A DNA stretch of 64,000 nt from a bacterium (GTDB lineage: Bacteria; Elusimicrobiota; Elusimicrobia; UBA1565; UBA9628), in NCBI GenBank assembly GCA_021799485.1, contig JAJZAK010000006.1:1-64000 (forward strand), given 5' to 3'. Shown piece by piece: positions 16,580-33,907 of this stretch (its first letter is position 1; every line of letters starts with the position of its first letter). The notes under the pieces are model-generated. The model was not told the origin of the DNA and did not search any database. It was given only the letters and a program-made list of their open reading frames with translations. A program made the translations under genes and the position numbers.

Positions 16580-17833
16580 TTACAAGCTCGACTGCTTGAG
16601 GAGGTCGACGAGCGCGGTCAAGGTGACGAGCTGGGCGCTCGGCTGGGGAAGGCGGTTGAGGAGGCTCACGGTCCCGCTCCATTTCTTCAGGCTTTCCCGG
16701 AACTCTTGCCGGCGGTTTTCGAGGGCGGCGAGGAGCTTGCGGCGCGATGCCGTGGAGACATCTCGATGGGCGGCCTTGTAGTCGCGGCGGGCCTGGTGGT
16801 ACTGGGCGAACGAAAGCTCGATGGAGCGCTTGAGCGTCTCGAGCCGCTCCCGCATCGCGGTCCAGGCGCTGGCGTGGGGAGCCGTCGCCTCGCGGGGCGC
16901 GAATTTCTCGGAGAGGGCCCGCAGCTCCACCTCAAGACGAGCCTTCACGATGAGCGATTCCGGGGTGCGCTTCAAGTTCGAGACGAGGCCCAGAGGGCGC
17001 ATGGCCAGCAGCCACCACTTCGTCGCGTCGAATTGATGGGCCCGCAGGCCGTTGCGGTAGTCGGCGGGAAACCGATGATGGAAGTTGTGATAGCCTTCCC
17101 CGAAGGTGACGATCCCCAGCCAGGCGTTGTCGCGGGCGGTGTTGTCGAGGGAATAGGGCCTGGATCCGTAAAGATGCGCCGCTGAATTGATGAGGAAGGT
17201 CATGTGCTCAACGAGGACCACGCGCAGAAAACCGCCCCAGAGAAGCCCTGCCAGGGGGTGGCCAAAGGCCAAGCCGACGAGCGTGGGGAGGACAAAGCCC
17301 GCCGTTATGGCGATCGACAGATAATGCTTGTCCTGCCAGACGGCGAGCGGGTTTTTGAGCAGGTCGGGGATGTTTTGAAAGCGCACGCTGCGCGGTCGCG
17401 GGTTCTTCAAGAGAATCCATCCCATGTGGGCGTAGAAGCCGCCTTTGAGAATATTGTAGGGGTCTTCTTCCTGGTCCACGAACTGGTGGTGGTATCGGTG
17501 ATCCGAGGACCAGTGGAGAACCGTATTCTCGAAGGCCGCGGCGCCGAAGATCAGATAGAAAAGTTGGAGAGGCTTCGAGCATTCGTAGGTCTTGTGGGAG
17601 AAATAGCGGTGGTAGCCCGCGGTGATCGAAAGCCCCGAGAGGATGTACATGACGGCGAAGATGGCGAGGTCCGCGGCGCGAACGCCGTTATAGTGGACAT
17701 ACAGCGCCGTTCCGGCGAAGGCGACGATCGGCGTGACGGTGAGGAAAAGGACGTTGCCAAGGTCGATCGGACGTTTTGTCGCGGTTAAAGAAGCGTTTTG
17801 ATCGATCAATTGAGTGGACATATTTTGGTTCAT
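16580..17833 (-). CDS. Delta-9-type acyl-CoA / acyl-lipid fatty acid desaturase
   Basis: 417 residues. The three histidine boxes of membrane desaturases are present: H75-RYFS-H80, H112-RYHH116, and GEGYHNFHH (His249, 252, 253), plus the extra His220 of NSAAH. Hydrophobic stretches between them fit the usual four-helix topology. The enzyme is a di-iron oxygenase that inserts a cis double bond into saturated acyl chains and needs O2, which fits with other oxygen-linked genes here. The C-terminal 115 residues (about 300-417) form a charged helical or coiled-coil extension not typical of the family. It begins 6 bp after the inositol-monophosphatase stop, so the two are probably co-transcribed. 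Confidence 0.9.
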   Translation of the reverse strand: MNQNMSTQLIDQNASLTATKRPIDLGNVLFLTVTPIVAFAGTALYVHYNGVRAADLAIFAVMYILSGLSITAGYHRYFSHKTYECSKPLQLFYLIFGAAAFENTVLHWSSDHRYHHQFVDQEEDPYNILKGGFYAHMGWILLKNPRPRSVRFQNIPDLLKNPLAVWQDKHYLSIAITAGFVLPTLVGLAFGHPLAGLLWGGFLRVVLVEHMTFLINSAAHLYGSRPYSLDNTARDNAWLGIVTFGEGYHNFHHRFPADYRNGLRAHQFDATKWWLLAMRPLGLVSNLKRTPESLIVKARLEVELRALSEKFAPREATAPHASAWTAMRERLETLKRSIELSFAQYHQARRDYKAAHRDVSTASRRKLLAALENRRQEFRESLKKWSGTVSLLNRLPQPSAQLVTLTALVDLLKQSSL

Positions 17834-17839
17834 TATACG

Positions 17840-18640
17840 CTATTTGCCGGCCCCCGTTCGAAGAATTTTGAGCATCCCGGCATGCAGGAGGCCGTTTGTC
17901 GCCAAGGTTTCTCGGCCGAAGCGCCGCCAGCGGTTTCCCCATGGATTTCCGGAAAAATCGCTGACGCGCCCGCCTGCCTCCTCGACAAGGAGAAGACCCG
18001 CCGCGACGTCCCAAGGGTTGAGGCTGAATTCCCAATAGCCGTCGGCTCGTCCGGAGGCGATCCAGGCCATGTCGAGCGCGGCGGAGCCGCTGCGCCGGAC
18101 GTCGTGGGATCGCACCATGAAGCGCCTGTAGAATTCGACGTAAAAACGGGAGCGTTCCGCCCTGTCGTAGGCGAAGCCCGTCAACAGCAGCGATTCCGAG
18201 AGTCCGCGGGTCCTGCTGACGCGCGCGGGGCGGCCGTTGAGGCGGGCGCCCCGGCCGCGCTCGGCCGTGAAGCGCTCATCCCGGAAAGGGTCATAAACCC
18301 CCGCCAGGATGGGCCTTCCGCGCCGCAAGAGCGCGATCGAGACGCAGGCCGCGGGATAGCCGTGCGCGTAATTGGTCGTCCCGTCCAGCGGGTCGATGAC
18401 CCAGAGGAATTCCGCGTCCTCGCGCCGCCGATGCTTTTCTTCGGCGACGATCCCGTGGGAAGGGAAGCGCTTTTCGAGCAGATCGACGATGAAAGACTGG
18501 CTTTGAAGATCCGCCTGGGTCAGGAGATCGGCGCGTCCCTTGTAGCTGATGGAGACATGGCCGAAATGGCGCAAAAGGAGGCGGCCGGCCCCGTCGAGGG
18601 CGCGGTCCAGCGCGGCTTTAAACGGCCGAAGGTCGGACAT
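17840..18640 (-). CDS. suhB: Inositol monophosphatase family protein
   Basis: 266 residues, the usual family length. Metal-binding motifs: EE at 67-68, VIDPLDGTTN (Asp83, Asp86) and NPWDVAAG (about 206-213). These enzymes remove phosphate from myo-inositol-1-phosphate or related sugar phosphates with Mg2+; bacterial SuhB also acts in ribosomal RNA antitermination. Which role applies cannot be told from sequence. It is followed by the desaturase gene after 6 bp and is divergent from the EF-P gene with 72 bp between them. Confidence 0.88.
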   Translation of the reverse strand: MSDLRPFKAALDRALDGAGRLLLRHFGHVSISYKGRADLLTQADLQSQSFIVDLLEKRFPSHGIVAEEKHRRREDAEFLWVIDPLDGTTNYAHGYPAACVSIALLRRGRPILAGVYDPFRDERFTAERGRGARLNGRPARVSRTRGLSESLLLTGFAYDRAERSRFYVEFYRRFMVRSHDVRRSGSAALDMAWIASGRADGYWEFSLNPWDVAAGLLLVEEAGGRVSDFSGNPWGNRWRRFGRETLATNGLLHAGMLKILRTGAGK

Positions 18641-18712
18641 CGCGGCATTCTACCAAACGGAAACCGCCGGCCCCTTGAAGAGGACGGCGCGGCTTTGGCA
18701 AGATGGAATCGA

Positions 18713-19399
18713 ATGATCCCGGCTTGCGAACTCAGAAACGGCGCCGTGGTGCGGCTTGACGGCGCGTTCTACAAGGTCGTCGAGTCCGTCGGCCACGCGG
18801 GCGGCGGCCGGGCCGGCGCCATGGTGCACGCCAAGCTGCGGGAGCTTTCAACCGGCCGCGTGATCGAACGGCGCTGGAACACCGACGACAAGGTCGACGA
18901 GGCCGCGGTCGAGCGCGTCACGATGCAGATGCTCTTCCGCGAGGGGGATGTCTTCACCTTCATGAACCCGCGGACCTACGACCAAATCCCGATCCCCGCC
19001 GCCATCGCGGGCCCGGCGGCCGCCTTCCTCAAGGAAAATGACGAGTGCGAGATCGAGTTCTTCGAGTCAAAGCCCCTCTCTCTTCATTACGCGCCGACGG
19101 TGGACATGACGGTCTCCTCCACGGGACAGGGGCTCAAGGGCCGCACGGAATCCACTCTCAAGGAAGCCGTGCTCGACAACGGCATGACGGCGCTCGTCCC
19201 CCAATTCATCAAGGAGGGGGATCGCGTGCGCATCGAGGTCGAGACTGGAAAATATCTCGACCGCGTGACGGAGCATGAGACGAAGGGCGCCAAGTTCACG
19301 ACGGCCGCGGCGCCTCAGCGGGCCGAGCCCAAGGCGCCTCCCAAGACGGAAGCCCCCGAAAAGTCCCGGACAAAGCCGTCCAAAACCGACAGGAGCTGA
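18713..19399 (+). CDS. efp: Elongation factor P with Arg-tipped loop and basic C-terminal tail
   Basis: 228 residues from this ATG; the open frame continues upstream but over the divergent gene. The three EF-P domains are clear (AKLRELSTG, TFMNPRTYDQIPI, SSTGQGLKGRTESTLKEA, VPQFIKEGDRVRI). The loop that reaches the ribosomal P-site is HAGGGRAGAM, placing Arg33 where the modified Lys or Arg sits. Normal EF-P ends around residue 187; here about 38 extra residues rich in Pro, Ala and Lys follow. EF-P relieves stalling at polyproline. No EarP, EpmA, EpmB or YmfI gene is in the window. Confidence 0.93.
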   Translation: MIPACELRNGAVVRLDGAFYKVVESVGHAGGGRAGAMVHAKLRELSTGRVIERRWNTDDKVDEAAVERVTMQMLFREGDVFTFMNPRTYDQIPIPAAIAGPAAAFLKENDECEIEFFESKPLSLHYAPTVDMTVSSTGQGLKGRTESTLKEAVLDNGMTALVPQFIKEGDRVRIEVETGKYLDRVTEHETKGAKFTTAAAPQRAEPKAPPKTEAPEKSRTKPSKTDRS

Positions 19400-19422: not shown

Positions 19423-20310
19423 TCAGCGGGACGGGGCGGGGACGAGAAAGATGTCGGCGGGGCAGCTGCCGCGAGGCTGAGGCACAAGCATCTTCCCCAA
19501 TTGCTCGGGCGCGAGGAGCTGGCTGGCAAGCCCTATATTGACTTCGGATAAAATCTCCCTGCCGTCCCCTTGACGGGAACAGTCGAAGCCGACGTCGGCG
19601 GCGCTTCCAGGACCGTAGTCGGCCTCAAAAGCCTTGGCCAAGTCGGCAAGCTCGACGGTCTGGCCGGCGTGCCCGGCCAGGAAATTCCCGAAATTCGATT
19701 GCGCGACGGCTCTGACGAGGGCTCCGGCCCGATTGAAGAATTCCTCGGGAGAGTAGCCCGAGCAACTGCCGTGGCGGTACCACTCGTGCCACTCCAGGCA
19801 GGACTGGGGATTGGCCCCGGGCATCACGGCGGCGAGCCCCGAGAGCGCCGCTTGTGAAAGCCCGGGATTGGGCATCTGGCACCATTGATGTGACTGGTCG
19901 AGGGATTCGATGTCGGGGGAGACGCCGCAGAAGCCATAGCTATGCTGGGAATCGTGACTTTGGTTGGGCCAGAGCCCATGTAGGATGAGGTGTTTCGCCG
20001 CGAAGCCGTCGGGGGAGTGAAAGGCGAAGCCGCATTCCGCGAGATCGGGATGTTGTTCGCAGAAGGCGGGCAACCACGTCAGGGCCAGAACATAATTGTC
20101 GAAATGACCGGCTACGGGGCCGTTTCCCGCGGAGTCCTGCTCCATGAGAGCGTCGTTGGAGAGGCGCCATTGAGAGGAATCAATCCGGCTCAGGGATGAG
20201 GCCGCGGCGGCGGCGGTTTCCTCGTCGCCCGCGCGGACTGGTTGGATGATAAAAGCGACTGCCGCCGCCAGCAAGATCGGAGCCCATTTTCTAATCGGCA
20301 TATTATTCAT
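19423..20310 (-). CDS. Secreted ribonuclease T2 family protein
   Basis: 295 residues. The ATG at 20310 gives a signal peptide (basic start, hydrophobic ILLAAAVAFIIQPVRA). Both catalytic blocks are intact: LILHGLWPN (CAS I, His at about 111) and EWHEWYRHGSC (CAS II, catalytic Glu and His at about 166-170). Cysteines are numerous, as expected for a disulfide-bonded periplasmic or secreted enzyme. RNase T2 cleaves RNA without base specificity through a 2',3'-cyclic intermediate and in bacteria usually serves nutrient scavenging. It is the last gene of a minus-strand series of exported proteins, converging on efp. Confidence 0.9.
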   Translation of the reverse strand: MNNMPIRKWAPILLAAAVAFIIQPVRAGDEETAAAAASSLSRIDSSQWRLSNDALMEQDSAGNGPVAGHFDNYVLALTWLPAFCEQHPDLAECGFAFHSPDGFAAKHLILHGLWPNQSHDSQHSYGFCGVSPDIESLDQSHQWCQMPNPGLSQAALSGLAAVMPGANPQSCLEWHEWYRHGSCSGYSPEEFFNRAGALVRAVAQSNFGNFLAGHAGQTVELADLAKAFEADYGPGSAADVGFDCSRQGDGREILSEVNIGLASQLLAPEQLGKMLVPQPRGSCPADIFLVPAPSR

Positions 20311-20420
20311 TCTCACTCTCGCTCATGAAATAGTCGCGAATGCGCAGCAAGAATAAGCCCGAACGTTTCGACTGTCAAGGGCCTTCGCCCGCGGCGAGAA
20401 CGAGACGCGCCAAGCGCGAC

Positions 20421-21323
20421 TCATGGCCGCCCTGGAAGGAACCCCGACGAATGCCTCGCAACGACGCGCCAGCGCGGGTCGACATAGAGGTTGTAGAGGG
20501 GCTTGAAAGCGGCGTCGTCCGCGGGTTTGGCGGAACGGATGAAATCAGCGGTTCCGCCGGCGGCGGGGAAGGCCGTGACGAGGAGGTGGCGTCCGCCGCG
20601 GAAGACCTCGTAGATCAAAAGCGGCGCGCCATCCTCCGCGGCGCCCGGGACGGAACGCATGTCGAAAAGATGGGTCCTCACGGACGCCGAAACCTTCCGG
20701 CCCTCCGGCGTTTCCCACGTCACATCGTCCTCAAGGCGGCCGAGGGGCGTGGCCGTCGGTTCGAGCCGGGCGGCGGCTGAAGGCGCTCCCGAGACGCCGA
20801 TCAGCCGATATAAGACCGCCGTCAGGTTGGAAGTGAACTCGCCTGCCGGGGGCTCGGGGCCGAATGTCCCCGCGGGAAGCCCGAGACGCTCGTCGATTCG
20901 CGCCTCGATCCAGCGCCGACCCTTGAGCCCATAGGGCGTCTGGAGTTGGGAAAAAAGATAGCCGTAGGTGTGCATCATCCCCGCGGGGGCATGGGCGACT
21001 CCGGCCGTGACGCGCCGCGGGATGCCCAGTCCCTTCATGACCCCGGGCGGCAGGATGTCGGCTTTCGCGTTCGCATCCAGGAGATTCGAATCGGTCCAGC
21101 ACTTGCGGGAGACCTCGGCCGCGATGCGCAGGCGTTGCGGCAACCCCGGTAGGACGTCCTGCAGTTGGGTCGCCGTCTGCCCTTGCATCAGCCTGGCATA
21201 AAGCGCGGCGTAGGCAGCGTAGGCCTCGGGGCCTTCAAGCGTCGCCGCGTGAGCGACAGGAGCCGCGGCGGCGGTCGCGGAGACGAAAGCCAGCGATAGG
21301 GCGGCGCCGACCCTCAAATCCAT
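20421..21323 (-). CDS. Hypothetical secreted protein
   Basis: 300 residues, family not recognised. Residues 1-26 form a typical signal peptide (hydrophobic SLAFVSATAAAAPVAHA with an A-x-A site). The mature part has a segment with MMHTYGYLFSQLQTPYG and a C-terminal beta-rich region (LLIYEVFRGGRHLLVTAF), and ends with YNLYVDPRWRVVARH. A single Cys is visible (KCW). It follows the thioredoxin-fold gene by 16 bp in the same direction, so it is probably in one transcript. Periplasmic location is likely; function is unknown. Confidence 0.7.
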   Translation of the reverse strand: MDLRVGAALSLAFVSATAAAAPVAHAATLEGPEAYAAYAALYARLMQGQTATQLQDVLPGLPQRLRIAAEVSRKCWTDSNLLDANAKADILPPGVMKGLGIPRRVTAGVAHAPAGMMHTYGYLFSQLQTPYGLKGRRWIEARIDERLGLPAGTFGPEPPAGEFTSNLTAVLYRLIGVSGAPSAAARLEPTATPLGRLEDDVTWETPEGRKVSASVRTHLFDMRSVPGAAEDGAPLLIYEVFRGGRHLLVTAFPAAGGTADFIRSAKPADDAAFKPLYNLYVDPRWRVVARHSSGFLPGRP

Positions 21324-21943: not shown

Positions 21944-23125
21944 TCAGCTGATGACGACGAGGCTCGAGGTATAGCCATGGACGTAATTGCGGCCCAGCAC
22001 GGGGCCGATCTCGCCATTGGCGAAGAATCCCGCCAAGGGGATGGGCCCCAAGATCTTTTGAATGAGGGCGCTGTCATGGTCCGGCTTGCCGTAAAGGCCG
22101 CGCCCGCGCCCGCAACAACTCGCGAGAATGGCGCCGTAAGGAATCCCCGGCTTGAGAGACAAGCCTTCCAGCCATTCCCGCAAATCATCCGCCGAGGTCT
22201 TGGCGTCGCGCACCTGAAATTGGATGGTTTGGCCCGGACGCGGCTCGGCTCCCAGGGCCATGGCGCCGTTAGGGGGGTCGAATCCTAGGATGTTGCGCAC
22301 GAGGAAGTCTCCCGCTTTGAAATCGCGGCGCCTTTCGTCCATGAGAATGCCGGCGAAGAGAGAGCGTCGGGCGAGAGCCTGTTCCCGAGGGGAGATCCCT
22401 TCCAAGGTTTCCTTAAGGGTCTCGAGAGCGGGGCGGCCGCCGAGTTGGTAGACCAAGTTCTCCGAGGCCTTGGTCACGATCCAGGGCTTGCCGATGGGCC
22501 GGCAACCCTGGGCGACGGCGACATTGAAATCGATATCGCCCGTCAGAGCGCAGCCGACGAGGCCCTCGGCAAAGACATCCGCGCCTAGAAGAAGCCAGCT
22601 TGGCTTGCCGATAGCGAAGCCGGAGGCCAAACCCCCGATGGCGGGAGCGCCCGGATAGGCCGCATTGAAAAGGGCCAGGGAGGCATCGACGTCGAAGCTC
22701 GCCGGATCGGCGAAGAGGAGAAATCGGGGCTTCTCGGTCGGGTAGACGTCAAGGGCTTCGATGAGCTTGGCGGGGCTTTCAAGGGCGGCCAATTCGCGTG
22801 AGGAGAAATAAAAGGTTTTGATTTTCGCGTCCGGAGCCGAGAGGGCGAAGGCCGAGACGGCGGGGGAGAACTCGATCTCCCTTGACCCGCCGATGACGCC
22901 GCTGGCGTTGACGGCTGCTATTTCGCGGGAGGGGATGACCTCCCGCGCGGCGGCGGCAAGCTCGACGGGCTTGAGACCGGGAAAAAGATCCGCGACAAAG
23001 AGGATCAGAAGATCGCAGGACGCGCCCTCCAAGCCGCGCGCGGCGACGGATGCGGCCTCTTGGACGGCCTCGCGCCAATCCGCGCCGGTGGAAAGCGCCG
23101 CCCCAAATCTTTTGGGCCTCGTCAC
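21944..23125 (-). CDS. FIST domain protein (FIST_N + FIST_C)
   Basis: 393 residues, the length of a stand-alone FIST protein. The N-terminal part has CDLLILFVADLF and the alternating beta-strand pattern with IAAVNASGVIGGSREIEF; the middle holds PAIGGLASG and EGLVGCALTGDI; the C-terminal FIST_C part ends with GPIPLAGFFANGEIGPV and NYVHGYTSSLVV. FIST domains are thought to bind small ligands, perhaps amino acids, and are usually joined to signalling modules. No kinase or cyclase domain is fused or adjacent here. It starts just downstream of the phospholipase-D-like gene. Confidence 0.85.
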   Translation of the reverse strand: MTRPKRFGAALSTGADWREAVQEAASVAARGLEGASCDLLILFVADLFPGLKPVELAAAAREVIPSREIAAVNASGVIGGSREIEFSPAVSAFALSAPDAKIKTFYFSSRELAALESPAKLIEALDVYPTEKPRFLLFADPASFDVDASLALFNAAYPGAPAIGGLASGFAIGKPSWLLLGADVFAEGLVGCALTGDIDFNVAVAQGCRPIGKPWIVTKASENLVYQLGGRPALETLKETLEGISPREQALARRSLFAGILMDERRRDFKAGDFLVRNILGFDPPNGAMALGAEPRPGQTIQFQVRDAKTSADDLREWLEGLSLKPGIPYGAILASCCGRGRGLYGKPDHDSALIQKILGPIPLAGFFANGEIGPVLGRNYVHGYTSSLVVIS

Positions 23126-23134
23126 AGCCCTATT

Positions 23135-24613
23135 TTACAACGTAGGCAGGCCGCCGCGAAGGGCGTGGATGGCGCCTTGGACGGCATGCTTCACGAAGGT
23201 CGCGCCGCGCTCGTAGCCGTAGTAGGCCACGCTGATGCCCTGATAGAGGGCCTGCTTGGGCTTGGAGGGGACGTGCTCCTGAAGATTCGCCAGCGTCAGG
23301 GGAGCCGAATCGGCGATATCCTTTAGGAACAAATCGCGGTCGAGCTGAGCCACGGCCGCGGCGTCCTGGACCTCGACATTGAGCTCGTTTTGGCTCACCT
23401 CCAGGAGCGGCATGAGATTGCCGGAGCCGACGCTTCCCCATCGTCCATCCACGGACATGGCCTTCGTATGGAACATGCGGGGGTAGGCGTAGACCTTGAC
23501 CCCGGATTGAAGGAGCTTCTTGAGGTGCCAAGCTTCGGCGCCCCCGGAAATCTTATGGTTGACATGCTCGTTATAGATGAACCGCACGTCGATCCCATGG
23601 CTCGCCGCGTCCTCGAGCGCCTGGAACACCTTGCCGTCCGTGAAGTAGCAGTTTTCAATGTAGATGTTCCGCCGGGCTTGATGAATATGCTCCAAAGCCG
23701 ACTCGCGGATGCGCCATTGCGAGTTAAGGTTGGGGTCGGTCGCGACGACTCGTGCCTTCGGAGCAGGAGAAGGCACGGTTTCCTTGGGGAAAATGTCCTT
23801 GGCCTTGGCGCCGCCCGCGGCTGTCCAGTGCTTGTCGAAATGATGGGCGAGCCTCATCGCGGCGGCGGAGCCGACGACATGGGCCGCGGCGTCGTGCCAG
23901 GAATAATTCTCGTCGTTGGGCATATAGCCGGTGGCGACCCCCTCCGTGCCGTCCATGACGAAGACCTTCCGGTGGTCCCGCTCGAGGGGGAAGAAGCCCT
24001 TGCGGCCCGCGTTGGAGTAGCGCACATCGATGCCGGCTTGGCGCATCGCATCGTACATCGCGGCCGTCCCCTGGCCTAGGGCCAACTTGCCGTCCTGCAG
24101 GTCATGCAACGGATAGATGTAACGTCCGTAGAGGTTGTCCACGAGAACCCTCACTTGGACGCCGCGATGGGAGGCGTCCATTAGGGCCCGAGCCATTTTC
24201 ATGCCGTGCGTATCCCCGCGAAATTCCATGAATTCAACGTCGAGCCGACTGGTGGCGCGGGCGGCCATGTCCAAAAGGCCCTTCTCGATTCGCGGGCTGC
24301 CGGCCCAGAACTCGACCTGTCGAACGGGGACATAGGCGGAACTGGGCTTGGCCTGGGAAAAAAGGGCCCTGGAGACGGCTTTTCTCGATCCGTCGAAAAG
24401 CGTTGAAAGAGAAGCGCCGCTCCCGAGGCTCGCGGCGGCTTCTTCGAGGATCGGAGAATGATTCGAGACCGGGATGGGCGCCCCGATCGCCGACGGAGCG
24501 GCCGCCGCCGTGATGCCGGTCGCCGTGCCGCTTGAGCCCGAGACGTCGAGAGCTCCCCAGGCGGGAGCGCCAAGAGCCAAGGTCAGGGCGCTGATCGCAT
24601 AGCGTGCCCGCAT
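23135..24613 (-). CDS. Secreted phospholipase D-like protein (two HKD motifs)
   Basis: 492 residues from the ATG at 24613, chosen because it has GGAG at good spacing and opens directly with a signal peptide (MRARYAISALTLALGAPAWG). Two catalytic motifs are intact: HRKVFVMD and HTKAMSVD, each followed by a G-S/T-x-N-like strand (GVATGYMPND, GSVGSGNLMP). The family includes cardiolipin synthases, phospholipases and nucleases. The signal peptide argues for a periplasmic or secreted phospholipid enzyme. It lies directly after the M48-like gene and before FIST in one run of minus-strand genes. Confidence 0.85.
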   Translation of the reverse strand: MRARYAISALTLALGAPAWGALDVSGSSGTATGITAAAAPSAIGAPIPVSNHSPILEEAAASLGSGASLSTLFDGSRKAVSRALFSQAKPSSAYVPVRQVEFWAGSPRIEKGLLDMAARATSRLDVEFMEFRGDTHGMKMARALMDASHRGVQVRVLVDNLYGRYIYPLHDLQDGKLALGQGTAAMYDAMRQAGIDVRYSNAGRKGFFPLERDHRKVFVMDGTEGVATGYMPNDENYSWHDAAAHVVGSAAAMRLAHHFDKHWTAAGGAKAKDIFPKETVPSPAPKARVVATDPNLNSQWRIRESALEHIHQARRNIYIENCYFTDGKVFQALEDAASHGIDVRFIYNEHVNHKISGGAEAWHLKKLLQSGVKVYAYPRMFHTKAMSVDGRWGSVGSGNLMPLLEVSQNELNVEVQDAAAVAQLDRDLFLKDIADSAPLTLANLQEHVPSKPKQALYQGISVAYYGYERGATFVKHAVQGAIHALRGGLPTL

Positions 24614-24641
24614 GGCCTGAGGTCTCCGGTAGTCCCGCATT

Positions 24642-25730
24642 TTACAGGGATTCGCCCGAGCCGGCCGTGGTGATCGCCGCAGCCGCGGCGGCCGCGTTGG
24701 GAGATGCCATCGAGGAAACGATAGACTCAAGCCGAGCGATCCGCTTGGGAGTGACCGCTCGTCCGCTGCGCATGATTTTTCCCATAAGGCCTCGGGGGAG
24801 CTGCCCCGGCTGCTCCGCGTAGTTCGAGGCCATTCGCTTCCAGAATCGGACCGCCTGCTTGGGGTCGTAACCGGCTTTGGCCATCAGCATGACGCCGACG
24901 CGATCGGCTTCATTCTCCTGGACGCCGCTGAAGCCGATCGTCGTCCCTTGCCGGATGCCGTTCGTCGCCAATCCGTAATAGGTTCCATACGCGATCTCAA
25001 GGGTGCTGATGCCCATGATCGTCGCGGGAGCGGCGGCCAAGGCCAGAACGGGCGCGACGACCGCTCCGGCGGCCATCAGTCCGCCCTGCACGAGCAGGAT
25101 TTCCGATATGCGTTCCCCCATGTGCCGTTGAATCGCGTGGGCCATCTGATGGCCGAGCAAAGCCGCGAGCTCGTCGTCGGTCCGGGCGAGGGCGACCATG
25201 CCCGAGAGGACGCCGATCTTGCCGCCGGGAAGGGCAAAGCCCTGGTCGGGGTCTCCCGCGATTTGGAAGGGAGCCGAGGTGGGTCCCTCTCGGACCAGTT
25301 TGACCTCCCAGTTCCAGTCGGGGCGTCCGGACACGGCGATCAGACGCGAGGTGACGCGCTGGACCCTGGCCAGGGATCGGGCGCTGTCGGAAAGAACGGA
25401 GTTGGAGAGGAAGCGCTGGTAAAGAGCCTGTCCAATGCCCGTCTCCCACGGCTCCTTAAAAAGGTCGATACGGTGGCGCCCGGTGTTAGGCGCCGTGGTC
25501 TTGGCGTGGAGCGTCGCCCGGAAATGATGAAAGCGCTCCCTAAGTTTTTGCAGGCTTCCCGGCTCGGCGAGCCTTGTGCCGGCTTGAAGACTCTGCGCGA
25601 AGCCGGCATCGCCTTCGACGCTGACGCCTTCAAGCGACCGCGCCTGAAGGGTTGGACATATAATAAGAGACGCTGCCAAAAGGGTCCATAGAGGCGCGTT
25701 GCGGCAAGGGGTTAATCGTCTTATGTTCAT
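24642..25730 (-). CDS. M48-like metallopeptidase homolog with altered active site (HQMAH)
   Basis: 362 residues from the ATG at 25730; upstream in-frame starts are TTG only. An N-terminal signal segment (about 11-30) points to export. The fold is M48-like: TDDELAALLG-HQMAH-AIQRH at 186-203 and later ENEADRVGVMLMAKAGYDP with the third-ligand Glu. The classical HEXXH is HQMAH here: the general-base Glu codon GAG is CAG (Gln195). The two His ligands and the ENEAD motif remain, so metal may still bind but peptidase activity is doubtful. It could act as a chaperone-like or regulatory pseudo-peptidase of the BepA/YfgC type. It precedes the phospholipase D-like gene by 28 bp. Confidence 0.82.
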   Translation of the reverse strand: MNIRRLTPCRNAPLWTLLAASLIICPTLQARSLEGVSVEGDAGFAQSLQAGTRLAEPGSLQKLRERFHHFRATLHAKTTAPNTGRHRIDLFKEPWETGIGQALYQRFLSNSVLSDSARSLARVQRVTSRLIAVSGRPDWNWEVKLVREGPTSAPFQIAGDPDQGFALPGGKIGVLSGMVALARTDDELAALLGHQMAHAIQRHMGERISEILLVQGGLMAAGAVVAPVLALAAAPATIMGISTLEIAYGTYYGLATNGIRQGTTIGFSGVQENEADRVGVMLMAKAGYDPKQAVRFWKRMASNYAEQPGQLPRGLMGKIMRSGRAVTPKRIARLESIVSSMASPNAAAAAAAITTAGSGESL

Positions 25731-25823
25731 GGGGGAAAATATAGCAACGAGACTCAATCCGAGCCAGGGCCGTTAGTCCCAAAGGCGAGGGACAAGAGTC
25801 CTAGGTCTTATGGGCAGCGGTGA

Positions 25824-31720: not shown

Positions 31721-33907
31721 ATGATGCGAGCGCATTCATTGCTCTGCCTGTGGGTTGCCGGCATCCTTGCTTGCGCCCCTTGCTCGGCATATTCGCAAGC
31801 GGCCGATGGCACGGCGCCCCAAAGCGTCTGGACGAAGGCCAGTGTCGGAGAATCCTTCTCCGACGACGACCTAACGACGAGCGAGAAGACCAACTTCGGC
31901 TTTAATTTCCAGAACTCCGGAATGCGCGGCTGCGACCGCTTTCCTTATATTTTTAACTCGATTCCCATCTCCTACGCCATCCCGGCGATTGCCGGGGCCA
32001 ACTCCCTCATTACGAATCTGGCGGGGAGCGGCACCAGGAAATTTCTCCGGGATCCCCAATATGGCCGTCTCTTCCTCGACGACGAGATCAACGTGAATCC
32101 CACCTTGGGCCCCAGCCGGGAGATCGCGACCCCCATCAAGGGACTGCCCCTCTCGTTTTTCGGGACCGTGAATCTTAACGGCACGTCGGGGGTGGCGCGG
32201 CCTCTTCCCAACCAGGATTCATGCAAGGAGATCAAGCAATACTTGAAGCTGTGGGATTTCAAGCTCGTCCTTCCCTTGTCCGGCAAGCGCTTTGCCGCGA
32301 TGTTGCCCGGGGAAATATGGAGGATCCCCGTCACCTTCACGATACGCATCGGTCCCTCGGCGGGTTATTCGGTGACGAACTCCGTCTCGGGAGGGCTTCT
32401 CTCCGGCGCGGCCCAGCAGGCCCTTATGCAGGGCGTCAACGTCGTCATCGCGATTTCCGGGAGCACCCAAAAGTCGGCCACGGTCACGTTGCGCCGCTTG
32501 GACGAGAATTCGCTGCGGGTGCGCGTGAGGCTTGGCCGCGCGAGGATTCTCGACGCGAACGGAACGGTTTTCGCGGGAGCGCCCGTCGTCGGAATGACCG
32601 AGTCGCTCGTCGGGGGGCTCGTCGGGCATCTTTCGAAGACGATCGCTCCGGCCGTCGCTTCCTATGTATCCCAGGAGTTGCTTCTCATGTTGAGCGGCCA
32701 GCTGACACTCGACTGGTCCCAGACCGCCGGGGATACGGCGGTTCTCGAGTATGTGCTCAATCCGAACAACGCGGATCAAATGGACATCCTGGCGCGGCTC
32801 CTGCGCGGGGACCTCAACGTCTTTAAGCAGCTTGTCCGGTTCTCCAGACTCTCGAAACCCTCCTCCACCGACAACACGGATCTCAAGCGATTGTCGGCCC
32901 TCGAGAAAGAGCATTCGCAAGCTCTGGGCCAGAAGCCCAGCTACTCCGGCCTGACGGCGATCCGCTCCGCCATGGCCCAGATTTCGGGGGGCTTGCCGTT
33001 CATAGGGAACTTCGCGTGGAATCGCGGCCATGACGAGTCGAGCTTCCTCGACATGCACAAAGAGGGGTACGACCGCTACCACGTCTACGACGCCTCCCGG
33101 CAAAAAAATTGGGGGCTGTTTTATATTCCCTTCGCCGGCACCGTCTCTCTGAGAAACCACAGCCAAAGCATCCAGGCGTTCTCATCGAAGAACAGCTCCG
33201 GCTCCTCCGTCGGCGCCTCCGTGCTCTTTGTCGACCAGCACGGCGCCCTGCGCCGGGTCGGCAAGAGCGCGGCGAAGGCCCTTGAGGAGTACAACGGCGT
33301 CATGCGCTATGTCGGCGCCCACGGCTCGGGGACTAACCGGACGATGGAAATACCGGTTCCGAGCGTGCTTTCCTCAGGCACGGCCACCGCAGTCAAGAGA
33401 TCGAACATGAACTTCTCCCTGTATCTTTCCTCGACGGCGGTGGGCTCCATCCTCAAGACATCCTCCGACGAGGTGATGGCGGCCTATCGCAACGCCTTCC
33501 CGGAGCGCGAAACCGCCCGCACGGGGATCATCGGCGGCCTGGCTCGCGCCGTGGACGGGCTCATCAACCGCCGCGGCGATAAGAAAGCGGCGCGCTTGGC
33601 TGGGGACATAACGAAGGCCGGGGAGTCCTCCGATCAGGACGAGCAACTCGCGGCCTTCGCGAGGATCGTCTCCGGCAAAGGCAAGAGTAAGATGGGATTC
33701 AAGGACGTCTTCAGGGTTCTCGTCCAATTCGTCGATCCGACGGAGCTCGCCGGGGATCTTTTGATGACCGTCGCCACCCAGATGGGCCAGGCGAACAGCG
33801 GAGAGACCCACCTCGTCTACAACCAAGATCTTCTCCACAGCCCTTCCGTCGAGAGCTTCGCCAAGACCAAGTATCGCTACATACCGCCCCAACCGTTGAC
33901 CGATTAG
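31721..33907 (+). CDS. Large hypothetical secreted protein
   Basis: 728 residues, family not recognised. The start has AAGGA about 7 nt upstream. Residues 1-27 are a signal peptide (LLCLWVAGILACAPCSAYSQA). The mature part has no obvious repeats: an N-terminal beta-rich region with paired Cys (RGCDRF, DSCKE), a central helical stretch with a Gly-rich hydrophobic segment (VVGMTESLVGGLVGHL), and a C-terminal region ending in KYRYIPPQPLTD. It is probably periplasmic or outer-membrane associated. The gene converges with lptD and overlaps its 3' end by 4 bp, so the two mRNAs would be antisense at their ends. Confidence 0.7.
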   Translation: MMRAHSLLCLWVAGILACAPCSAYSQAADGTAPQSVWTKASVGESFSDDDLTTSEKTNFGFNFQNSGMRGCDRFPYIFNSIPISYAIPAIAGANSLITNLAGSGTRKFLRDPQYGRLFLDDEINVNPTLGPSREIATPIKGLPLSFFGTVNLNGTSGVARPLPNQDSCKEIKQYLKLWDFKLVLPLSGKRFAAMLPGEIWRIPVTFTIRIGPSAGYSVTNSVSGGLLSGAAQQALMQGVNVVIAISGSTQKSATVTLRRLDENSLRVRVRLGRARILDANGTVFAGAPVVGMTESLVGGLVGHLSKTIAPAVASYVSQELLLMLSGQLTLDWSQTAGDTAVLEYVLNPNNADQMDILARLLRGDLNVFKQLVRFSRLSKPSSTDNTDLKRLSALEKEHSQALGQKPSYSGLTAIRSAMAQISGGLPFIGNFAWNRGHDESSFLDMHKEGYDRYHVYDASRQKNWGLFYIPFAGTVSLRNHSQSIQAFSSKNSSGSSVGASVLFVDQHGALRRVGKSAAKALEEYNGVMRYVGAHGSGTNRTMEIPVPSVLSSGTATAVKRSNMNFSLYLSSTAVGSILKTSSDEVMAAYRNAFPERETARTGIIGGLARAVDGLINRRGDKKAARLAGDITKAGESSDQDEQLAAFARIVSGKGKSKMGFKDVFRVLVQFVDPTELAGDLLMTVATQMGQANSGETHLVYNQDLLHSPSVESFAKTKYRYIPPQPLTD

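Follow-up and report, generated by a model that had tools for sequence, protein, structure and literature searches.

An exported-looking M48-family protein without the catalytic glutamate and the HPx4R plug, conserved in one bacterial genus next to a phospholipase D-family gene

Introduction

The window analysed here, a stretch of 64,000 nucleotides of bacterial DNA, encodes on its minus strand an M48-family protein of 362 amino acids (24642..25730, stop included, ATG at 25730) that has lost two elements of the active site, namely the general-base Glu of the HExxH zinc motif, which is replaced by Gln, and the His-Pro pair of the HPx4R plug. Both losses are shared by the two other members of the genus that were examined. 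Three features expected of a pseudopeptidase are found in this protein: the catalytic residue has been lost, the fold has been kept, and the gene is under purifying selection. We consider the chances somewhat better than even that it is an exported, zinc-holding M48 pseudopeptidase, which would act in the periplasm as a binding or escort protein. As judged part by part from the sequence, the protein is very probably inactive as a peptidase and quite probably has a selected binding role, while a phospholipase D (PLD)-family protein encoded immediately downstream could be its client or partner, a suggestion to which we give a little less than an even chance. Pseudopeptidases themselves are already known, and the one proposed here would be a conserved M48 form that lacks the general base and the plug alike.

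Protein, zinc site and predicted fold

The N-terminus of the protein is a signal-peptide-like segment by inspection, so that it looks exported, and its sole Pfam match is Peptidase_M48 (PF01435, residues 121-336), which scores 84.8 bits against a cut-off of 20.3 and shows that HQMAH is not a chance motif. This motif occupies residues 194-198 (25137..25151, minus strand; CAT CAG ATG GCC CAC), with CAG instead of GAG as the codon of residue 195, within a zinc helix that reads G-H194-Q195-M-A-H198-A-I-Q-R-H203, where H203 lies five residues past H198. By alignment, the ENEAD motif (residues 272-276; 24903..24917, minus strand) retains the third zinc ligand, Glu272, together with Asp276. The original prediction had described precisely this arrangement, a replacement of HEXXH by HQMAH at Gln195 with both His ligands and ENEAD kept; its numbering is correct, and the strand, which it left unstated, is the minus strand. 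All three genus members read HQMAH and thus lack the catalytic Glu, and all three retain H194, H198, H203, E272, D276 and R330 in an alignment of 50 rows. The rows of this alignment are the window protein, its two relatives in the genus, whose ends were set by hand, and 47 ranges taken from the 110 others; L009, which has an internal TGA, is omitted, and the other omissions are mainly near-copies or weak relatives.

An AlphaFold2 model of the window protein, computed with the 50-row alignment as input, reached a pLDDT of 74.8 and a pTM of 0.74, with a core above 90. In ten-residue blocks, pLDDT is 90-97 over residues 181-210 and 271-300, 52-68 over 221-270 and 44 at 311-320, and the lid (about 221-270) and the plug (311-320) are accordingly the low-confidence parts of the model. 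The best Foldseek matches are 3c37 and BepA (6ait), which align to the model in VIA-align 2 with Z 17.1 (rmsd 3.6, 202 residues aligned) and Z 16.9 (rmsd 2.8, 193 aligned), respectively, compared with Z 8.9 for ZMPSTE24. The zincin fold of the M48 family is thus predicted to be kept.

Conservation of Gln195 and selection on the gene

The conservation of Gln195 among orthologs, which had been proposed as a check, is borne out, as Gln is present in both other genus members examined and is specified there by a codon that differs from that of the window. The orthologs do not all carry HEXXH, as the refutation named in the original prediction would have required. The orthologs in genomes G001 (the same gene as L033) and G002 (the same gene as L034) share 84% and 76% identity with the window protein and both read HQMAHAIQRH, the Gln codon being CAG in the window and CAA in each of the two. 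The nearest ortholog outside the genus, in genome G012 of the same family (L006/L113), is 49% identical and has Glu, encoded by GAG, with HEMAH and HPITARR both intact; from its sequence it is presumptively an active protease. The single base change that had been suggested earlier, GAG to CAG, agrees with this Glu-type ortholog, and the codons would fit such a change in the genus stem followed by a synonymous one. The genus sample consists of three species of one genus; completeness is about 90% for the window's own genome (G000; 2.31 Mb, 61 contigs, 90.1%) and for G001, and 62% for G002.

Rates of substitution, estimated by the NG86 method for the three genus pairs and to be taken as rough, some dS values being about 1, give dN/dS of 0.227, 0.148 and 0.176 for the whole M48 gene, 0.039, 0.121 and 0.092 for residues 141-204, which contain the zinc helix, 0.191, 0.093 and 0.112 for the lid residues 205-265, and 0.245, 0.187 and 0.188 for the neighbouring PLD gene. 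The M48 gene is under purifying selection that is strongest around the dead active site, and the best-kept segment is the one on which a dead relic should depend least. An error of sequencing or assembly, or a polymorphism of the strain, has in its favour that CAG and GAG differ by one base, but it can for practical purposes be dismissed: Gln appears in each of three separate assemblies, under two different codons (CAG, CAA and CAA), all three lack the His-Pro pair of the plug, and selection on the gene is purifying.

Loss of the HPx4R plug

The place of the plug motif HPx4R corresponds by alignment to residues 324-330 of the window protein (RAVTPKR; 24741..24761, minus strand), where His and Pro are absent and the final Arg is kept. 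In the 50-row alignment, the His-Pro pair is present in none of the three genus rows and in 47 of the 47 other homologs, one of which (L060) is itself a Gln form, while the Arg is kept in all. The two columns are filled in the genus by R-A, R-A and P-E in this alignment and fall into a two-residue gap in an alignment of four rows, so that there is no plug His in the genus under either. None of the three genus proteins has any His after H203, and the G012 protein has the His-Pro pair. The statement in the original prediction that the rest of the fold is retained holds for the three zinc ligands and the fold, but it had missed that the plug His-Pro is gone. At least 85% of the 47 other homologs agree at 49 positions, of which 36 are kept in the window protein, 35 in G001, 38 in G002 and 41 in G012; R269 has been lost in two of the three genus members (the window protein and G001), a possible sign that part of the site is decaying.

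The plug has been studied in BepA, in which H246, within HPx4R, is described as the fourth protein ligand of zinc and as auto-inhibitory; the same authors regard HPx4R as conserved through the Pfam family, report that movement of the plug is required for BepA activity, and suggest that the H246N mutant is deregulated (PMC7950410).

Gene neighbourhood and the PLD partner

The M48 gene is followed on the minus strand by the gene of an exported-looking PLD-family protein with two intact HKD motifs (23135..24640, with an alternative ATG at 24613), directly after which comes a FIST-domain protein (FIST N and FIST C by Pfam; 21944..23125); further on are a 300-aa exported-looking protein with no Pfam match (20421..21323) and an RNase T2 family protein (19423..20316), all on the minus strand. 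The full order in the window is thymidine kinase, ppsA, hemerythrin, M48, PLD, FIST, 300-aa protein and RNase T2, the first two genes having been named by inspection. The corresponding order is ppsA, hemerythrin, M48, PLD, 300-aa protein and RNase T2 in G002, where no FIST gene lies between PLD and the 300-aa protein; thymidine kinase, M48 and PLD up to the contig end in G001; and the Glu-type M48 followed by PLD in G012. The adjacency of M48 and PLD is thus the constant element, found in four of the four genomes that have an ortholog, and both HKD motifs are intact in the PLD protein of each. The original description of an operon with exported proteins applies in part, in that by inspection the PLD protein, the 300-aa protein and RNase T2 look exported, whereas PpsA, hemerythrin and the FIST protein do not.

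A single base separates the M48 stop from the first PLD ATG in the window and in G001, the two overlap in G002, and in G012 they lie 14 bases apart with AGGAGG in the gap; the spacing indicates that the M48 gene is translationally coupled to the PLD gene. Among the 44 genomes of the family, strong M48 matches (at least 49% identity) occur in G000, G001, G002 and G012 only, and these four are also the genomes in which PLD matches score above 250 bits, the best of the remaining matches reaching 119.5 bits. PLD relatives of lower score are widespread, with a match at 1e-15 in 33 of the 44 genomes, and a profile built from the four PLD genes and run on the collected loci matched in those four genomes only. 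Other members of G012's genus that were examined are without a strong match to either gene; with three of the four genomes in one genus, the co-occurrence of M48 and PLD amounts effectively to two independent lineages.

Inspection of three upstream regions revealed an extended -10-like element, TTGCTATATT, just 5' of the M48 ATG (25738..25747, minus strand), although a consensus promoter scan did not list it there. The form TTGCTATA(T/C)T is found in the window, L033 and L034, where it ends 6-7 bases before the M48 ATG with no obvious Shine-Dalgarno sequence, which suggests that transcription may start at the M48 gene and yield a leaderless message.

Two further observations concern other parts of the window. 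An exported-looking protein of 728 aa (31721-33907, plus strand) has no Pfam match at 0.001. An elongation-factor-P-like C-terminal stretch is nearly the same in the window (17798-19399, plus strand) and in L034 (5477-5941, minus strand), where it has a different N-terminus; in the window it is preceded by a long unrelated-looking frame, and the arrangement may reflect a misassembly or an artefact of the frame.

Other M48 proteins and a second, independent Gln clade

Each genus genome has two PF01435 matches, namely the window-type protein and an HtpX-like protein (HELSH, HPP), and the PF01435 search recovered no active LoiP/BepA-like paralog from these genomes (G000 and G001 about 90% complete, G002 62%). 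Eight PF01435-matching stretches were found in G012, of which L183, L186, L188 and L189 show HExxH and HPx4R, and L180 shows HPx4R.

Only one further Gln form, L060 from a Nitrospinota metagenome-assembled genome, appeared among 80 pattern-search loci (80 of 89 were kept) and the read loci of 57 genomes; the peptide pattern contained HQMAHAIQ, and the resulting ratio of Glu to Gln forms is therefore not a frequency. Of 12 Nitrospinota genomes from L060's family, 10 have an M48 match at 1e-20, four of the HQ and six of the HE form. The HQ proteins (L195, L196, L200 and L201; family of G340) are lipoproteins with the codons CAA, CAG, CAA and CAG, respectively, and HPx4R is kept in all ten proteins, HQ and HE alike. 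The gene adjoins rnhB and recJ in five of five regions (L205-L209; three HQ, two HE), with rplS on its other side in three of them, all neighbours having been named by inspection. A duplicated paralog is disfavoured, as HQ and HE forms share one syntenic locus in these five regions, and the catalytic Glu appears to have been lost in place with the plug kept. In a tree of 41 rows, the two Gln groups fall into different clades (100/100 support for each), and two Glu-to-Gln changes are needed, none of 200 bootstrap trees (0%) allowing one; the Nitrospinota change is independent of that in the genus. The genus stem branch in this tree measures 0.79, compared with 0.46 for the G012 tip.

A DNA search of the phylum with an HQ-type pattern, which covers only M/V/I and then A/G inside the motif, matched 61 of 340 genomes in 68 rows, and a Glu control pattern matched 189 of 340. 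At 30 of the 68 loci (L149-L178), a profile built here found no M48 gene. Twenty-five of the other 38 rows were translated, and only the three genus rows, the known M48 proteins, read HQMAHAIQRH; the other 22 translated rows were judged by string alone, and the 13 remaining rows repeat or resemble these strings by eye.

Proposed function and alternative explanations

The ancestral gene would have encoded an M48 protease and formed a two-gene unit with that of a secreted PLD-family enzyme, and G012 would still show this state. In the genus stem, the general-base Glu would have changed to Gln and the plug would have given up its autoinhibitory His-Pro, with purifying selection still acting on the three zinc ligands, the fold and the substrate-side helices. 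Zinc is most likely still bound by three protein ligands, with the fourth position open and no activation of water. Such a predicted open site could hold a substrate without hydrolysing it, the edge strand being represented here by Q-G-F (residues 163-165; 25236..25244, minus strand), the alignment equivalent of the Asn-Ala-Phe with which BepA contacts its substrate (PMC8423444). The disarmed form has been kept intact in relatives, and it therefore probably binds partners rather than cuts them, which would make it a binder, holdase or escort of some exported client protein. The first candidate client is the co-translated PLD protein, by its genomic position the best-placed one, and the second a protein of the outer membrane, in line with LptD as a client of BepA. 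The Nitrospinota form has kept its plug, which could still shut the site. A bolder version of this reading, to which we give rather doubtful standing, holds that M48 proteases have twice evolved into non-cutting zinc-site binders, and that the genus form is an open, hydrolysis-dead peptide trap co-translated with a secreted PLD-type enzyme that it escorts or restrains.

Whether the cleft is used at all is where the structural alternative differs. The protein might be a structural subunit of a periplasmic complex, stabilised by its zinc and binding nothing in the cleft, and the retention of the zinc ligands without the catalytic Glu agrees with this; we nevertheless think it unlikely, as few parts of the protein are as well conserved within the genus as the cleft segment and the lid (dN/dS 0.04-0.12 and 0.09-0.19). 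The range for the cleft segment also weighs against the idea of a non-functional relic, a decaying protease kept by chance after catalysis was lost: it draws on the changes at otherwise invariant positions (E195, H324 and P325 in all three members, R269 in two) and on the long stem branch (0.79 against 0.46), but frames are intact in three species at 76-84% identity, dN/dS in the active-site segment lies below that of the rest of the gene, and both the -10-like element and the coupling to PLD are kept, so that we regard a relic as very improbable.

Continued catalysis, with Gln195 tolerated, deamidated to Glu after translation or replaced by another residue as base, could account for the retention of all three zinc ligands and the cleft helices, and for the fact that Gln has been retained in two independent clades without drift to other residues. 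The equivalent change in BepA, E137Q, however, abolishes proteolysis (PMC7950410), and an autoinhibitory His is most easily lost if no activity is left to restrain, BepA H246N appearing deregulated (PMC7950410); we judge continued catalysis to be very improbable. Much the same low standing is given to a regulator or decoy of an active M48 paralog, a role suggested for ADAM pseudopeptidases and a common logic among pseudoenzymes (PMC3650047): the only other M48 protein in each genus genome is HtpX-like and of a different subfamily, and no active LoiP/BepA-like paralog was found there.

The preferred reading, a zinc-holding and non-cutting binder, does not mean that a dead or unplugged M48 protein is automatically a good chaperone, given the phenotypes of E137Q and H246N in E. 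coli, each of which raises vancomycin sensitivity (PMC7950410, PMC8423444). As BepA E137Q moreover promotes LptD maturation only weakly (PMC7950410, PMC8423444), a good non-cutting binder would need tuning by further evolution, for which the long genus stem would allow. The separability of the chaperone-like work of BepA-type proteins from cutting, and the purpose of the plug, have so far been studied by means of E. coli mutants. Nature appears to supply a comparative series, with Glu lost and the plug kept in Nitrospinota and both lost in the genus, that suits a direct test, and the results suggest that the M48 family includes inactive proteins, which deserve to be annotated accordingly.

Comparison with known systems

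Pseudopeptidases with inactivating active-site substitutions are known from other zincins, notably the ADAM and CLCA proteins, some of which carry HQxxH (PMC11266112, PMC3650047), but these belong to other families than M48 and are mainly animal. According to one survey, Gln is the commonest replacement of the zincin Glu, and what such proteins do is poorly understood (PMC3650047), and a 2024 review gives HQLGH for ADAM7 (PMC11266112). The available text of that review has 0 mentions of M48 among its pseudopeptidase families, and no M48 pseudopeptidase was found in a literature search limited to open-licence papers.

The Nitrospinota HQ lipoproteins likewise conserve Gln in place of Glu, with both CAA and CAG codons; they differ in their separate origin, the kept plug and their location beside rnhB and recJ, where no PLD gene was seen. 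The G012 ortholog shares the M48-PLD order and differs in its intact HEMAH and HPITARR. LoiP/YcaL-type M48 lipoproteins and PDB 3c37 from Geobacter, the best fold match, are likewise single-domain M48 proteins; unlike the genus proteins, the aligned LoiP/YcaL-type proteins have HPx4R, and HExxH in all but L060. The position of the lipobox Cys holds C, S and C in the genus and A in G012 by alignment, with no convincing lipobox context on inspection.

BepA/YfgC, an M48 protease of E. coli that also does chaperone-like work, shares with the window protein the zincin core and the HxxxH and ExxxD ligands, and it is the best NCBIfam match, although the BepA equivalog NF052400 is matched over residues 164-307 only, with 76.3 bits against a cut-off of 570. 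The window protein is unlike BepA in that no C-terminal TPR was found (it ends at residue 362, with PF01435 as its only domain match), in the change of Glu to Gln and in the missing His-Pro of the plug. BepA E137Q is protease-dead, and its contact with substrate persists (PMC7950410, PMC8423444). The edge strand N105-A106-F107 crosslinks to LptD in the E137Q background and is required for degradation and for chaperone-like work alike, and the His switch is thought to let a substrate occupy the site uncut (PMC8423444). Set against this system, the proteins of the genus resemble a natural BepA double mutant, E137Q combined with H246N.
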